A DNA stretch of 64,000 nucleotides, taken from NCBI GenBank assembly GCA_030949385.1, contig JAUZSP010000003.1, positions 62,001-126,000 on the forward strand, read 5' to 3'. The notes beneath the pieces were generated by a model. The model was not told where the DNA came from. It did no database searches and was given only the letters and a program-made list of their open reading frames with translations. This DNA is from Gammaproteobacteria bacterium (GTDB lineage Bacteria; Pseudomonadota; Gammaproteobacteria; JAUZRS01). The translations under genes and the position numbers were made by a program. Shown here piece after piece: positions 8,787 to 21,658 of the stretch; the stretch's first letter is position 1; each line of letters opens with the position of its first letter.

Positions 8787-8872
8787 TTTCTAAGCTGCCT
8801 ATCCGGCAGTGAACAAGTTTTGTACCTGATCAACCACAACGCGCTTTTTCTAACTGATATTACGCGCTGAAC
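8787..8872 (-). CRISPR. Isolated CRISPR repeat-spacer-degenerate repeat unit
   Basis: 8787-8814 is a perfect copy of the 28-bp repeat of the main array. It is followed by exactly 32 bp (8815-8846), the array's standard spacer length, and then by a 26-bp sequence (8847-8872) that begins TTTCTAA and ends CTGAAC like the repeat but is mutated in between. The precise 32-bp spacing makes this a real repeat-spacer-repeat unit, not a chance match. It lies 175 bp left of the main array, at its leader-distal side, and is probably an eroded or cut-off tail of the same array. Confidence 0.8.
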
Positions 8873-8955
8873 AGGAACCTATACCCTATAGAACAAACCT
8901 TGTGTTCGCCCTGTTTGTGGAACGTGGATTTTAAATGGGAGGTTTATTTTTCACT

Positions 8956-9032
8956 CGTCATTCCCGCGAAGGCGGGAATCCATAGGCTCTTGTCATAGAT
9001 TCATGTGGATTCCCGCCTTCGCGGGAATGACG
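8956..9032. repeat. Inverted pair of dRS3-like repeats
   Basis: Two 27-bp arms, 8956-8982 and 9006-9032, are perfect inverted copies of each other with 23 bp between them. Each arm contains ATTCCC-N8-GGGAAT with inner GCGAAGGC, matching the dRS3-type repeat pattern described in Neisseria and found in similar form in other bacteria. The pair sits between the isolated CRISPR unit and the main array. Confidence 0.75.
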
Positions 9033-9047
9033 TGGGTTTAGATTGAT

Positions 9048-11702
9048 TTTCTAAGCTGCCTATCCGGCAGTGAACGTTCAGGTTCAGGTGCATAAAAAAC
9101 AATTGACTTTCTAAGCTGCCTATCCGGCAGTGAACACTGGGTGTTGCGCTCAACTGATGCAGCACAGTTTCTAAGCTGCCTATCCGGCAGTGAACAATCT
9201 CTACAAAATGGCGCACAGACCCCGCATTTTCTAAGCTGCCTATCCGGCAGTGAACAAAGCGGAAAATGAGGCTCACGCGGCTAGCTGTTTCTAAGCTGCC
9301 TATCCGGCAGTGAACGCATCAACCGTTGATTACTCTTTTGCTAGAAATTTCTAAGCTGCCTATCCGGCAGTGAACAGCAATGCTCTCCATGCAACAACCA
9401 TTTAAGTTTTCTAAGCTGCCTATCCGGCAGTGAACGCCACGCCAGACCCTTCCTGATTCGGTGTTTGTTTCTAAGCTGCCTATCCGGCAGTGAACTCTGT
9501 TCTGGTTTCGTTACCGGCTCTTGTGTCTTTCTAAGCTGCCTATCCGGCAGTGAACTTGTTGGTATAGATGATGGCGTTTTGCATAATTTTCTAAGCTGCC
9601 TATCCGGCAGTGAACACCAGAGAACGAAGTTGTACCAAATGCAGCCATTTCTAAGCTGCCTATCCGGCAGTGAACTTCCGCTGAGTGCGAATAGCGCCGC
9701 CGGTTGCATTTCTAAGCTGCCTATCCGGCAGTGAACGAGGCTAGAGAGGCTGAGTGACGGTCTAGCTTTCTAAGCTGCCTATCCGGCAGTGAACTAGATG
9801 CTCCAGACATATTTTTGGCTAGAATTTTTCTAAGCTGCCTATCCGGCAGTGAACTGTTTGCACCGACTGCTATACTCTGATGTGAATTTTCTAAGCTGCC
9901 TATCCGGCAGTGAACGACGTGGGCGGCTATGCGGCTTTAGCTTGTATTTCTAAGCTGCCTATCCGGCAGTGAACTCAATGCAACAGTGATTAACGATGCT
10001 CTTATTTCTAAGCTGCCTATCCGGCAGTGAACAACTAAGAGCTGGATATTGCGAGTCTGATATTTTCTAAGCTGCCTATCCGGCAGTGAACCAATGTCAA
10101 GAACTCCGATCGCCGCCATTTTTCTAAGCTGCCTATCCGGCAGTGAACCAAATGTCAAAGCTCGATCGCCCTATTTTCTAAGCTGCCTATCCGGCAGTGA
10201 ACCAGCATGACTATAGTCGTGTCATGCGATGTTTTCTAAGCTGCCTATCCGGCAGTGAACTGTAATCACTGCGGCTGATGATCAGCTAATGATTTCTAAG
10301 CTGCCTATCCGGCAGTGAACAAAGGGTTACGAAAAAGCGCCACCGCTACATTATTTCTAAGCTGCCTATCCGGCAGTGAACGCAGAGCTAGCAGAGCTAG
10401 CAGTGGCACGGGATTTCTAAGCTGCCTATCCGGCAGTGAACATCATCTTAATCGTGGTGGTACGTCTATTTTTTTTCTAAGCTGCCTATCCGGCAGTGAA
10501 CCGGATCAGCGTACAACTGCGCGCTGATACGCTTTTCTAAGCTGCCTATCCGGCAGTGAACTGACTGTTGAGCGTTGACAGTGACTTTGTTTCTAAGCTG
10601 CCTATCCGGCAGTGAACGCATCTAACAGACCTACAGACCATAGTGCATCTTTCTAAGCTGCCTATCCGGCAGTGAACTTGCTGGGTCAGTGGTAGCGGGT
10701 CGTGCGTCATTTCTAAGCTGCCTATCCGGCAGTGAACAGAAAAAGGCGACAAAGCTAGATCCCGTGGTTTTTCTAAGCTGCCTATCCGGCAGTGAACACA
10801 AAAAAGCCGCTAAATCAGCGGCTCCCTTGTTTCTAAGCTGCCTATCCGGCAGTGAACCTGACTTATTGTTCAAGCTGGCCAATCGGCAATTTCTAAGCTG
10901 CCTATCCGGCAGTGAACACTCTGATCCTGTCGCTGTAGATTTTTTGAAATTTCTAAGCTGCCTATCCGGCAGTGAACGCCGTTTTCGCCGCTGTCACAGT
11001 GACGTTCTCTTTCTAAGCTGCCTATCCGGCAGTGAACACGGCTGCACCAAAAGCGGCGCAAGGCGCAGCTTTCTAAGCTGCCTATCCGGCAGTGAACCTA
11101 TCCTGATTTATTTTTCAAGCCAGCTAATCTTTCTAAGCTGCCTATCCGGCAGTGAACTTGAAGAGGCTGTTGCGATAGCCGCGCTTGTTTTTTCTAAGCT
11201 GCCTATCCGGCAGTGAACACCTCCTTCCCACAATGCCCTCTCTGTGAGAATTTCTAAGCTGCCTATCCGGCAGTGAACCCCCGCCTTGTGTGCGATTTGA
11301 TTAGCAAATATTTCTAAGCTGCCTATCCGGCAGTGAACAAGTGGAGCTTCGATATGTGAAACTATCACAATTTTCTAAGCTGCCTATCCGGCAGTGAACG
11401 ATTGTAATTCTCAATTTGCGAGCCTGATTGATTTCTAAGCTGCCTATCCGGCAGTGAACCCGACCATGACACGTCACAGGCGTAGGCGTGATTTCTAAGC
11501 TGCCTATCCGGCAGTGAACATGAGGATAAAGAGCTTGGTGCAGCTCTTGATTTTCTAAGCTGCCTATCCGGCAGTGAACGTACATACTCGCACTAAGCAG
11601 CATCCGCGATCAGTTTCTAAGCTGCCTATCCGGCAGTGAACCTCATCGATATTGGAGTGGTTTCAGGTCACCTATTTCTAAGCTGCCTATCCGGCAGTGA
11701 AC
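9048..11702 (-). CRISPR. Type I-F CRISPR array, 45 repeats and 44 spacers
   Basis: A 28-bp repeat (plus strand TTTCTAAGCTGCC...GGCAGTGAAC) occurs 45 times, the first at 9048-9075 and the last at 11675-11702; I saw no mutated copy. Read on the minus strand it is GTTCACTGCCGGATAGGCAG followed by CTTAGAAA, the type I-F/Csy repeat with its CTGCC-GGATA-GGCAG stem. Transcription should therefore run leftward, with the leader at the right end and the newest spacers near 11,650. Most spacers are 32 bp. Lengths vary at 26-33 bp in spacers 11-20 (9676-10232), and at 28 bp (spacer 26) and 34 bp (spacer 43) elsewhere. No cas gene lies in the window. Open frames across the array are repeat translations, not genes. 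Confidence 0.98.
10798..10829 (-). terminator. Intrinsic terminator carried inside CRISPR spacer 30
   Basis: On the minus strand, the direction of crRNA transcription, this spacer reads AGCCGCT-GATTT-AGCGGCT followed by TTTTTGT. The stem is a perfect 7 bp (10805-10811 with 10817-10823) with a U-rich tail running into the next repeat. It has all the parts of a rho-independent terminator. It is the 15th spacer from the leader, so 14 spacers lie upstream and 29 downstream. Whether it terminates in vivo is unknown, because repeat hairpins and Csy4 binding could interfere. Confidence 0.65.
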
Positions 11703-11968: not shown

Positions 11969-12328
11969 AAAAAAAAGAGCCACCACTCAGCGTCCTTGCT
12001 GTGTGGTTTATGGCTGCTTCCCTATAAAATCCTGTTAGATGCGTACTGCATCACTGGCGGTAAAAGCCAATTCCTCAGCCTATGGCATATCCTATGCGCT
12101 CCCTGGCCTCCAACTCCTGATAGACAGACTCCGCTGTCCCATCAATCCTTGATGCTGTTTCATCCTTGGCTCATCCACTGAGCGTACTGATTTCCTAATC
12201 AGACGTTCCCTGACCTTGTCATCATCCTGATGACTCCTTGGCTATCGGCTCAAATTCAAAATCCTTAAATGACTTCCTGTCGATCACTCCTTGATAAAAT
12301 ATGTGCCTTACTTGGCGTATCCTCCTTG
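11969..12328 (-). ncRNA. csrB: CsrB/RsmZ-type small RNA that sequesters CsrA
   Basis: The minus strand carries 22 GGA motifs in about 360 nt, many in the loop of short perfect hairpins: GTCATCA-GGA-TGATGAC (12218-12234), CTGATT-AGGA-AATCAG (12187-12202), ATCAA-GGA-TTGAT (12141-12153), GCATA-GGA-TATGC (12085-12097), GACAG-CGGAGT-CTGTC (12123-12138), GAC-AGGAA-GTC (12271-12281), ATCA-AGGAG-TGAT (12283-12295) and CAGC-AAGGAC-GCTG (11988-12001). This is the hallmark of CsrB/RsmX/Y/Z RNAs, which titrate the translational regulator CsrA. The 3' end is a GC-rich stem closing in GGTGGCTC followed by T8 (11969-11976). Size and motif number are close to E. coli CsrB. The 5' end is estimated from a -10-like TATAGA at 12335-12340. 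csrA is not in the window. Confidence 0.9.
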
Positions 12329-12334
12329 GATGAA

Positions 12335-12362
12335 TCTATAGTAGTTTCTTAAACTTTTTTCT
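12335..12362 (-). promoter_or_regulatory. Putative promoter of the CsrB-like RNA
   Basis: On the minus strand a TATAGA hexamer (12335-12340) lies about 7 nt before the first GGA motifs. A weak -35-like TAGAAA is 17 bp upstream. The AGTTT-AAG-AAACT palindrome between them (about 12342-12354) could be an activator site. I do not find the TGTAAG-N6-CTTACA box used by GacA in pseudomonads. Confidence 0.35.
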
Positions 12363-12649
12363 ACCAGCAGCACGGCCAGCGCAGCAAAAACATCGCCCCC
12401 TAACGGTGAGGTATTTGTCAGAGAACAGCAAAAAACCAGCAATAAAAAACGCACTGCCATCTTATTTGTGATGCAGATCACAGTTCTAAATTGCCCTTTC
12501 AATCGCCCCAGCTTAAGCAGACTCTTGTCCATACAACTACAAAAGTCACTATTGGCACAATTATATCTTTAGCTTATTAGATAAATACGATATACTTAGT
12601 ATTCCTTTTAAGCCTACATTGTCTCCACTGCCATTGAACGAGGTTTCTA
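12363..12649. other. Divergent intergenic region before the FIST gene
   Basis: This 287-bp stretch holds the upstream region of the CsrB-like RNA (minus) and of the FIST gene (plus). The right part is AT-rich, with a candidate -10 TATACT near 12591-12596, and a GAGG ribosome site precedes the FIST start. A 74-codon minus-strand open frame crosses it but has no clear ribosome site or family match, so I do not call it a gene. Confidence 0.4.
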
Positions 12650-13849
12650 ATGCTTGACTTTTATTCCGCCAGTACCCGTATGGTCAACTCCAAACGCGCT
12701 ATCACCGAATGCATGGAAGCGGCACTGGGTGAAGAAAATCAAGACTGCGATCTGGTCATCATTCACGCCTCCATCGGTCACAACTACCAACAACTGATAG
12801 ATCAAGCCCGACAATTGGCTCCCAACGCTCGTATTCTAGGCAGCTCGTGTTGCGGTGTGATCGGCAGCGAAGGGGTGAGTGAATCCATGAAAGACGTGGC
12901 CATTATGGCCATCAAAGGCAAGTCAGAATTGGCAGTGGCGCATGTGGAGGGCATTTATGGCCACAACGCCTATGAAAAGACCGTAGAACTGGCAGAACAA
13001 CTCAAAGCCCAGAACGGCAACATCAACATGGTGCTGTTTCTCGCCCCTGGAATAGACATTGCCGATGACCTCTGCATCCAAGGACTGGAAAACGTACTCG
13101 GCGATGAGATCACTTTTTTTGGAGCCACCTCGGCAGACAACATGCGCGGCATCGCCAGTTATCAAATGGTCGATGAAACGGTCTATGAACACACCGCATG
13201 GGCGGTGGGCTTTGCCGATCCCAGCCTCAAAGTAGACACTCAGGCCACCCACGGTTTTATCGCCACCGGCGAGCCACTGACGGTGACCAAATCCAGCGGC
13301 AACCGCATCATCGAGCTGGATGGCCAACCCGCATGGCAAATCTACACAGAGCGTCTGGGCTTGAGCACCGAAGTCACCTGCGGCGACACCATCCCCATTG
13401 GCGCACTGGCCGAAGAGCTTCCGCCAGCAGAAGCGCAGGAATACGGCAATGATCACATTCTGCGTGCCGTCACCAAAAAAGAAGATGACGGCTCAATGCA
13501 CTACCCCACCCTCTGCCCAGAAGGCACCCAGCTGTGGCTGACCATCCGTGACGAAGAACGCATCTTCGATGATCTGGATCGTATGATGGAGCAGATGTTG
13601 AAGCGGATGGAAGGTGGCCAAACCGTAGCGGTCTTTCACGCCGACTGTCTCGCCCGTGGCCGAATGCTCTTCAACCGCATTATGAAAGATGAATTAGTAG
13701 CGCAGATGCAAACCCCACTGAGCAACAACGGCACCATTCCCCCTTGGCTGGGTTTGTATGGTTTTGGTGAATTTGCTCGCTTAGATGGTAAAAATGTGTA
13801 TCATAATTATTCCACAGCGATTTATGCCCTCTATCGAGAGAGCTGTTAA
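12650..13849 (+). CDS. FIST domain sensory protein
   Basis: This 399-residue soluble protein has a complete FIST N domain (about 25-220: ILGSSCCGVIGSEG, MVLFLAPGIDI, FFGATSADNM) and a FIST C domain (about 235-385, ending GLYGFGEFARLDGKNVYHNYS). FIST proteins are predicted to bind small ligands such as amino acids and usually work with a histidine kinase or chemotaxis protein. Here a hybrid kinase gene follows 45 bp later on the same strand, so a ligand-sensing pair is likely. The ligand is unknown. A GAGG ribosome site precedes the ATG. Confidence 0.92.
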   Translation: MLDFYSASTRMVNSKRAITECMEAALGEENQDCDLVIIHASIGHNYQQLIDQARQLAPNARILGSSCCGVIGSEGVSESMKDVAIMAIKGKSELAVAHVEGIYGHNAYEKTVELAEQLKAQNGNINMVLFLAPGIDIADDLCIQGLENVLGDEITFFGATSADNMRGIASYQMVDETVYEHTAWAVGFADPSLKVDTQATHGFIATGEPLTVTKSSGNRIIELDGQPAWQIYTERLGLSTEVTCGDTIPIGALAEELPPAEAQEYGNDHILRAVTKKEDDGSMHYPTLCPEGTQLWLTIRDEERIFDDLDRMMEQMLKRMEGGQTVAVFHADCLARGRMLFNRIMKDELVAQMQTPLSNNGTIPPWLGLYGFGEFARLDGKNVYHNYSTAIYALYRESC

Positions 13850-13894: not shown

Positions 13895-15722
13895 ATGAAC
13901 GATCTCACTTATGAGCAACTTCAGAAAAAATATGCGGCTCTACAGAAACGCCTCAACCGATTTTCACTGATCCAGCAAGACCTGATCACCTTGCATCAGA
14001 AACTGGATCGGGAGCTGGTGCGTTTCACCGCCATTCAACACTACAATACCCAAGCGCTGCTCAGTGACACACTCTCCGACTTTGCTGCGCGCACCGCCGA
14101 GGCGGTAGTTGATGTGTTTGAACTGGAGTTTGGTCTGCTCTGGCTGCTGTCCGATCAACAACTTGACCCCACTCCCAGCGGCATCGAAGGCCTGCAACTT
14201 CATCAATGGCAGGCTATAAAAAACTGGCTGGAAACCGAACTCAGCGACACACGCCTTGCCAGCGGCCTTATCCTTGATACAAAACAACTTCAACAACTTG
14301 AAGTTTCGGCTCAGTTAAACCAATTGATTATCTACCCTTGTCGAATACAAAATGAGTTATTGGGTTATCTGCTCACAGGCGTTACCACTCAAAATGCAGA
14401 CTTTTACGACCCCAAACAGATGGAAAACCTTGATGCCTTTAACGTCTTTGGCCAACAAGTCTCGTGTGTTACTGAAAAACCGCTACGCCAACGACCTGAT
14501 CCAAAAACAGATGGGGTTGATTCGACTCTCTGAACTCAATCACCGTACCGCCAAAGAGCAAGCCGAACACGCCAATCAAGCCAAAAGTCAATTCTTAGCC
14601 AATATGAGCCACGAAATCCGTACACCGATGAATGGCGTAATCGGCACCTTGGATCTGCTCCAAGAGACCGTCCTAGATCAAGAACAAACTCATCTGGTTG
14701 ATACCGCCACCGATTCCGCTCACTGGCTGCTGAACGTCATAGACGACACCCTCGATTTTTCCAAAATTGAGGCTGGAAAATTACGCCTAGAACAGGTCAA
14801 TTTTGATCTCAAACGGGAAATTTCAGCGGTGCTTCACCTGCTTGAATCCAAATCCAAACAAAAAGGCATCCAGCTCAAAAGCCAGTTTCACGGTGACATA
14901 GACACCCACTTACAGGGTGACCCCACTCGGCTGCGGCAAATTTTAATCAATCTGATTGGCAATGCGATTAAATTTACCGACCACGGCCACGTCACCCTCA
15001 CAGTCAGCCTGATTTGCGGCCATTCACAACACCTCACCCTGCGCTTTTCCATCACCGACAGCGGCATTGGCATCGAGCCTGAAACCCAAAAAAATCTGTT
15101 TCAAGCCTTCTCTCAAGCCGACAGCTCCACCACACGCAAATTTGGTGGCTCTGGTTTGGGTTTGGCCATCTCACAAAAACTGGTCAATTTGATGGGCGGT
15201 GAAATCAGCATCAACAGCCAACTCCATCTCGGCTCCGACTTCTACTTTCAACTGCGTTTCCCCCTTGCCGTCAAAACCAAAAAACCAAGCCCTCCCATCA
15301 AACACAGCAAAATCAAACTGCAAGGCCATGTGCTGCTGGTAGAGGACAACCCCGTCAACCAATGGATTGGCAAACGCATGTTGGAACACTTGGGTCTCAG
15401 CGTTCAGATCGCCAAACACGGCAAAGAAGCGCTTGAATTAATCAATCAACACACCTTTCACTTAATCTTTATGGACTGCCAAATGCCAGTGATGGATGGC
15501 TATGAGACCACTCGCCAAATTCGCCAACAAGAGAAAAAAGAAAATCGTCCCCCCATCACCATCGTCGCCCTAACAGCCAACGTACTGATCGAAGATCGAG
15601 AAAAATGTTTTGCTTCCGGCATGAACGACTACGTTAAAAAACCGTTCCGCAAACAGGATATACTGCAAGGCTTGCAACGCAACCTCCCACACACCCTCAC
15701 TGTTCCCGAAACCAGCCTATGA
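13895..15722 (+). pseudogene. Hybrid histidine kinase interrupted by a +1 frameshift
   Basis: Two overlapping frames together encode one kinase of about 608 residues. The first (13895-14533) has an N-terminal coiled coil and a GAF-like region, reading well to FNVFGQQVS. The second (open from 14352) resumes the protein with [17 protein letters not shown] and continues through HisKA ([13 protein letters not shown]), HATPase ([26 protein letters not shown]) and a C-terminal receiver ([25 protein letters not shown]). The junction is near 14462-14468 (TCGTGTG), where one extra base would explain the shift. Every kinase and receiver motif is intact, which favours a recent mutation or a sequencing error over long decay. 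It lies directly after the FIST gene and overlaps trmL by 4 bp. Confidence 0.85.
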
Positions 15723-20308: not shown

Positions 20309-21658
20309 TTGATGCTTGCTAAGACTCGCACATCGCTGCTCGTTATTTTGGGCATGGTGCTCGGCGCTTCCTTAACCCTCGGTCAAGGCGTCTTCGCCTT
20401 GCGGGATAATTCCGCCGAGTCGATGCCTCTAAACGAGCTGCGTAACTTGACCGACGTGCTGACCCGCATCAAGAAAAACTACGTAGAAGAGGTCAGTGAC
20501 AAAGAGCTATTAGAAAATGCCATTCGTGGCATGTTAAGCGGCTTAGACCCTCACTCTTCTTTCTTAAATGAAGAGGAGTTTAAAGAGCTCAAGGTTGGCA
20601 CCACCGGTCAATTTGGCGGCCTCGGCATTGAGGTCAGCATGGAAGACGGTTTTGTCAAAGTGGTCTCGCCCATTGATGACACCCCCGCACAAAAAGCCGG
20701 GGTGCAGAGCGGTGACTTGATCATTCGTCTTGACGATCAGCCGGTCAAAGGCCTGACCCTCAACGATGCGGTCAAAATCATGCGCGGCAAACCTGGCACC
20801 GACATCTTATTGACCATCGCCCGTGAAGGCGCTGGCAAACCGCTGAAAATCAAAGTGACGCGCGCCATCATTCGGGTCAACAGCGTCAAACGTCGCCTAT
20901 TAGATGAAGACTTTGGTTATGTGCGCATCTCCAGTTTCCAAGTCAAAACCACCACCAGCCTGTTGGAAGCAATTGAAGAGCTGATCGAAGAGAACAAAAA
21001 GCCACTCAAAGGTTTGGTGCTTGATCTGCGCAACAACCCAGGCGGTGTGCTCTCTGCCGCGGTCGGTGTCTCTGATGCCTTCTTGAAAAAAGGCCTGATC
21101 GTTTACACCGAAGGCCGTGTCAGCGATTCCGAGCTGCGTTACAACGCCACCCCAGGCGATGCCATTGACGGTGCAGCGCTGATCTTATTGATCAACGGAG
21201 GTTCTGCTTCTGCTTCAGAAATTGTTGCGGGGGCGCTGCAAGATCACAAACGCGCGGTCATTCTGGGCACCAAAAGTTTTGGCAAAGGTTCGGTGCAGAC
21301 CATTCAAGAGCTGAACGGCGGCGGCGCAGTCAAACTCACCACCGCACGTTATTACACCCCATCGGGTCGCTCCATCCAAGCCGAAGGCATTGAGCCTGAC
21401 ATCAAAGTCGCTAGATTGACTCTGGAAAAACAGAAAAAATCAGCCGACGAAATCAAACCACTAACGGAAGCCAACCTTAACGGCCATCTAACAAACGGCA
21501 ATGCCGACAAAGATGGGCAGAATAAAGAGGCAACAGATAAATCTTCTGAGAAAGATAAAACAGAGGATAAAAGCACCCACTTAGCTGAGGAAGATTACGC
21601 CCTCTACGAAGCCCTCAATATGCTTAAAGGTCTCGCTATTCTGCAAGCGAGCCACTAA
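20309..21658 (+). CDS. C-terminal processing protease, S41 family (CtpA/Prc)
   Basis: A 449-residue periplasmic serine protease. An N-terminal signal or anchor (about 1-30) is followed by an N-terminal helical part (TRIKKNYVEEV), a PDZ domain (about 100-185, GIEVSMEDGFVKVVSP) and the S41 catalytic core with the Ser in NGGSASASEIVAGALQDH and the Lys in GTKSFGKGSVQT. The tail beyond about residue 380 is Lys/Glu/Asp-rich and of low complexity. It probably degrades or trims periplasmic proteins, including peptidoglycan hydrolases. It lies between envC and yibQ; an AGGAG ribosome site precedes the ATG. Confidence 0.94.
   Translation: MMLAKTRTSLLVILGMVLGASLTLGQGVFALRDNSAESMPLNELRNLTDVLTRIKKNYVEEVSDKELLENAIRGMLSGLDPHSSFLNEEEFKELKVGTTGQFGGLGIEVSMEDGFVKVVSPIDDTPAQKAGVQSGDLIIRLDDQPVKGLTLNDAVKIMRGKPGTDILLTIAREGAGKPLKIKVTRAIIRVNSVKRRLLDEDFGYVRISSFQVKTTTSLLEAIEELIEENKKPLKGLVLDLRNNPGGVLSAAVGVSDAFLKKGLIVYTEGRVSDSELRYNATPGDAIDGAALILLINGGSASASEIVAGALQDHKRAVILGTKSFGKGSVQTIQELNGGGAVKLTTARYYTPSGRSIQAEGIEPDIKVARLTLEKQKKSADEIKPLTEANLNGHLTNGNADKDGQNKEATDKSSEKDKTEDKSTHLAEEDYALYEALNMLKGLAILQASH

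Follow-up and report, generated by a model that had tools for sequence, protein, structure and literature searches.

The minus strand of the window, the whole 64-kb stretch of DNA analyzed here, very probably encodes a stand-alone CsrA-sequestering small RNA (sRNA) of the CsrB/RsmZ functional class at approximately 12331-11969. Direct support comes from the density of GGA motifs and the manner of their presentation, an intrinsic terminator, a 5′ part and promoter that are conserved in a congener, the lack of a coding sequence, and the presence of CsrA together with a GacA/UvrY-type response regulator. A preliminary description of this DNA had proposed a CsrA-sequestering RNA at the same place, and that proposal is supported by the genes for CsrA and the regulator, by the congener's retention of the 5′ part and promoter, by an architecture like that of Escherichia coli CsrB and CsrC when scored with the same code, and by a full-length alignment to the Rfam model RF00018.

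Motif density and hairpin presentation

Between 12328 and 11969, the minus strand contains 22 GGA motifs, including 15 AGGA and 10 ANGGA. The count is exactly that given in the preliminary description and lies beyond all of 2000 dinucleotide shuffles, none of which reaches 22 (mean 11.2, sd 2.25). The density over these 360 nt is also the maximum for both strands of the 64-kb window.

Many of these motifs sit in the loops of small hairpins. Nine GGA are enclosed by at least four uninterrupted Watson-Crick pairs, in keeping with the earlier estimate of at least eight perfect or near-perfect hairpins, and six by at least five pairs. When the GGA motifs are held fixed and the remaining bases permuted (n = 500), the corresponding null values are 2.37 and 0.57, and no shuffle attains either observed number. 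The strongest hairpin, at 12218-12234 on the minus strand, presents its GGA on a 7-bp stem (gtcatca-GGA-tgatgac). Permitting unlimited G-U pairs weakens the contrast to 13 GGA-loop hairpins versus 8.9, with 40 of 500 shuffles reaching the observed value.

Folding of the RNA gives a more moderate result. The preliminary description had asked whether the GGA motifs are buried in stems; their mean unpaired probability across the ensemble is 0.60 versus 0.46 for shuffled sequences, with 0 of 40 shuffles matching it, while the minimum-energy fold does bury a few GGA in pairs. The stability of the whole-RNA fold relative to shuffles is modest (z = -1.9), as expected for a string of small hairpins.

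The locus ends, as previously described, in a stem followed by a T8 tail. The terminator stem (12020-11977, minus strand) folds at -19.8 kcal/mol and carries an AAGGA in its own loop, and the T8 tract occupies 11976-11969. With the T8 as the 3′ end and a -10 element placing the 5′ end near 12331, the putative sRNA gene (11969-12331, minus strand) is approximately 363 nt long. The earlier statement that the locus encodes no protein agrees with a search of its minus strand for open reading frames of at least 80 amino acids, which found none.

Comparison with known CsrA-binding RNAs

At Rfam gathering scores, CRISPR repeats are the sole match in the window, and CsrB is not called. When 801 bases are searched permissively against all families, RF00018 aligns over positions 1-356 of its 356 with the terminator in register, scoring 20.9 bits (E = 0.0012) against a gathering threshold of 71 bits. 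Comparison with Rfam models, recommended in the preliminary description, thus yields the full-length alignment and, at the same time, a score under the cut-off. A standard Rfam scan therefore misses this RNA, and by the Rfam rule it is not an RF00018 member; the claim made here rests on architecture, statistics, and context. The match went unreported when 52 kb were searched under stricter filters, and a search of the organism's own genome with RF00018 likewise did not report the locus at 11969-12331.

As a yardstick, csrB and csrC from the E. coli MG1655 record were scored with the same script. E. coli CsrB resembles the window RNA in motif number (22 GGA each) and length (369 versus 363 nt), contains seven perfect GGA-loop hairpins compared with nine, and is likewise a stand-alone intergenic gene with an intrinsic terminator. 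The two differ in their neighbors, which are yqcC and syd in E. coli and a FIST gene and a CRISPR array in the window, and in the GacA box, which occurs with one mismatch before E. coli csrB and was not found before the window RNA. E. coli CsrC is similar in its seven GGA-loop hairpins and in GGA accessibility (0.61 versus 0.60 for the window RNA), but it is shorter (246 nt) and has 14 GGA; the region upstream of csrC, like that of the window RNA, is without a good N6 GacA box. The RsmY, RsmZ, and RsmX RNAs of Pseudomonas, approximately 100-180 nt in length and with fewer GGA than the window RNA, exemplify the mode of action that would be expected of it.

Conservation in a congener

Two genomes of the order were examined, the second being a congener from the same genus. 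The congener contig ends approximately 140 nt into the RNA, and the comparison consequently covers two sequences and the 5′ part of the RNA. Over these 140 nt the RNA is 88% identical, and the promoter region from -40 to -1 is 87.5% identical, whereas intergenic DNA further upstream falls to 56%. The RNA starts at the same position, beside the FIST gene, in both genomes. Within the compared part, nine GGA in the window face ten in the congener: seven of the nine are in register, one is lost, one is shifted by a single base, and new GGA is added. At the shifted motif the loop changes from AAGGAG to AATGGA while the ATCA/TGAT stem is kept, and the strongest hairpin recurs in the congener with an altered loop. 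The one indel between the two sequences is 1 nt in length, which argues against coding.

A BLAST search of 369 genomes of the class with the RNA recovered the congener only and none of the 367 others. Such a lack of homologues is usual for CsrA-sequestering RNAs, the sequences of which are not conserved (PMC8523701).

The divergent neighbor, a plus-strand gene at 12650-13849 encoding a FIST-domain protein (Pfam FIST and FIST_C), provides context only. It is 95% identical in the congener, and in each of the two genomes it adjoins the RNA. Beside FIST genes elsewhere (Thiohalocapsa, Mariprofundus, Thiothrix, and others), nothing matched the AGGA density of the stretch in the window, and hence the linkage of FIST gene and RNA is seen only in this genus.

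Two further observations concern the surrounding DNA. After the FIST gene, a frame without a Pfam match (13895-14533) overlaps a hybrid histidine kinase frame (14352-15722), and the two (13895-15722) may be one kinase gene split by a frameshift or sequencing error. On the minus strand at 21134-21338, a match to Rickettsia sRNA47 that stays below threshold (45.9 bits) lies antisense to an S41-peptidase-like gene (20309-21658) and probably reflects conserved coding sequence.

Promoter and upstream elements

A -10-like element, TACTATAGA, lies at 12335-12343 on the minus strand and is conserved in the congener. It is accompanied by no good -35, and a simple promoter scan returned no sigma-70 site for the RNA. 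A conserved -10 lacking a good -35 would fit an activator-dependent promoter. Further upstream, the block TCTGACAAATACCT (12409-12422, minus strand) is identical in the congener within an otherwise diverged region and is a possible activator site. A search upstream of the RNA for the GacA box TGTAAG-N6-CTTACA found none with fewer than five mismatches. A perfect CRP-like palindrome, TGTGATCTGCATCACA, with 0 mismatches, occupies 12467-12482; the congener has a one-mismatch CRP-like palindrome nearer the promoter. The palindrome could act on the sRNA gene, on the FIST gene, or on both. Both CsrB and CsrC have been reported to be under Crp control in Yersinia pseudotuberculosis (PMC3523269).

Csr/Gac components and a second CsrB-like locus

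The genome encodes one copy of CsrA (90.5 bits), with the canonical N-terminal sequence, and csrA adjoins the aspartokinase gene lysC. A response regulator that combines a receiver with a LuxR-type domain reaches 249 bits against the UvrY model, compared with 117 bits for the next best; its score falls below the NCBIfam cut-off of 280 bits for that model. The gene for this GacA/UvrY-type regulator lies directly before uvrC, the usual place of uvrY/gacA. With csrA next to lysC and the regulator gene next to uvrC, the arrangement resembles the Gac/Rsm layout.

A second locus, on C7 and flanked by a phosphoesterase-like gene on one side and tRNA-Ser/ffs/dnaX on the other (L002, approximately 1840-1470, minus strand), is probably a CsrB-like RNA of the same genome. 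It has its own terminator and gives the genome's best RF00018 score (24.3 bits, E = 9.8e-5). Its 16 GGA are equaled in 220 of 2000 shuffles and its five hairpins in 31 of 500, and given these marginal statistics its status as a paralogue is probable rather than certain. Two such RNAs per genome, as with CsrB and CsrC, are common. In the congener (G001), a contig ends at the terminator of the second locus, and a search of that assembly for the 5′ side found nothing. Both CsrB-like loci thus coincide with contig breaks in the congener, lying within the locus or at its margin (L004 end, L047 minus-strand start), perhaps through assembly trouble.

The adjacent CRISPR array and other readings of the locus

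A type I-F-like CRISPR array of 46 identical repeats (8787-11702) has the same strand direction as the RNA and begins approximately 265 nt downstream of its end. This arrangement raises the question of whether the RNA instead serves the array, either as a leader or accessory transcript or by extending the pre-crRNA at its 5′ end. Regulatory connections of this general kind have precedent: type I-F systems are under Csr/Rsm control in Serratia and Pectobacterium (PMC8450108), and in Marinomonas CRISPR-Cas is governed by a pathway of the BarA/UvrY type (PMC8523701). However, a strong terminator separates the RNA from the array, the array's repeat is absent from the entire congener assembly, in which the RNA is retained, and Csy3 and Csy4 both went undetected in the genome, which is 98% complete. 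The array thus looks orphaned or served by undetected cas genes. We also know of no role for GGA-loop hairpins in crRNA biogenesis, which counts against a leader function. Given the undetected Csy3 and Csy4, the missing repeat in the congener, and the intervening terminator, the adjacency looks incidental, and we regard a leader or pre-crRNA role as highly improbable. A functional link between the decoy RNA and the array, whose leader it adjoins, for example through readthrough or Csr control of crRNA supply, is just as improbable; if true, immunity and a carbon-storage switch would be physically coupled.

Slighter still is the chance that the locus is a functionless stretch, purine-rich by accident or compositional bias. 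Purine-rich DNA does yield GGA-rich runs, and the Rfam score is below the cut-off; yet the motif density exceeds dinucleotide shuffles and the hairpins exceed GGA-fixed shuffles, RNA and promoter are conserved above the upstream DNA, and a terminator stands at the correct end. CsrA sites often occur in leaders, but the reading of the locus as the 5′ UTR of a downstream gene, or as a leader that binds CsrA in cis, is every bit as implausible as a functionless stretch, with a terminator immediately after the locus, no evident same-strand coding gene before the CRISPR array, and 22 sites far exceeding the few usual in a leader.

Proposed function and significance

As a CsrA-sequestering sRNA, the window RNA would bind several CsrA dimers simultaneously through its GGA motifs, many of them in hairpin loops. 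Once transcribed, it would lower the amount of free CsrA by sequestration, and CsrA-controlled mRNAs would in turn be released from control or lose activation. Production of the RNA may itself be controlled by the GacA-type regulator, by a CRP-type protein, or by both.

RNAs of this kind are well known, and this one is missed by automatic annotation. Its recognition shows the RNA branch of the Csr/Gac system in an order (two genomes) for which Rfam at its cut-offs calls no RNA of this kind. Gathering thresholds miss CsrB-type RNAs that fall outside well-studied families, and GGA-hairpin statistics combined with a terminator and synteny can recover them. The RNA offers a point of entry to global regulation in a gammaproteobacterial lineage that has received little attention.
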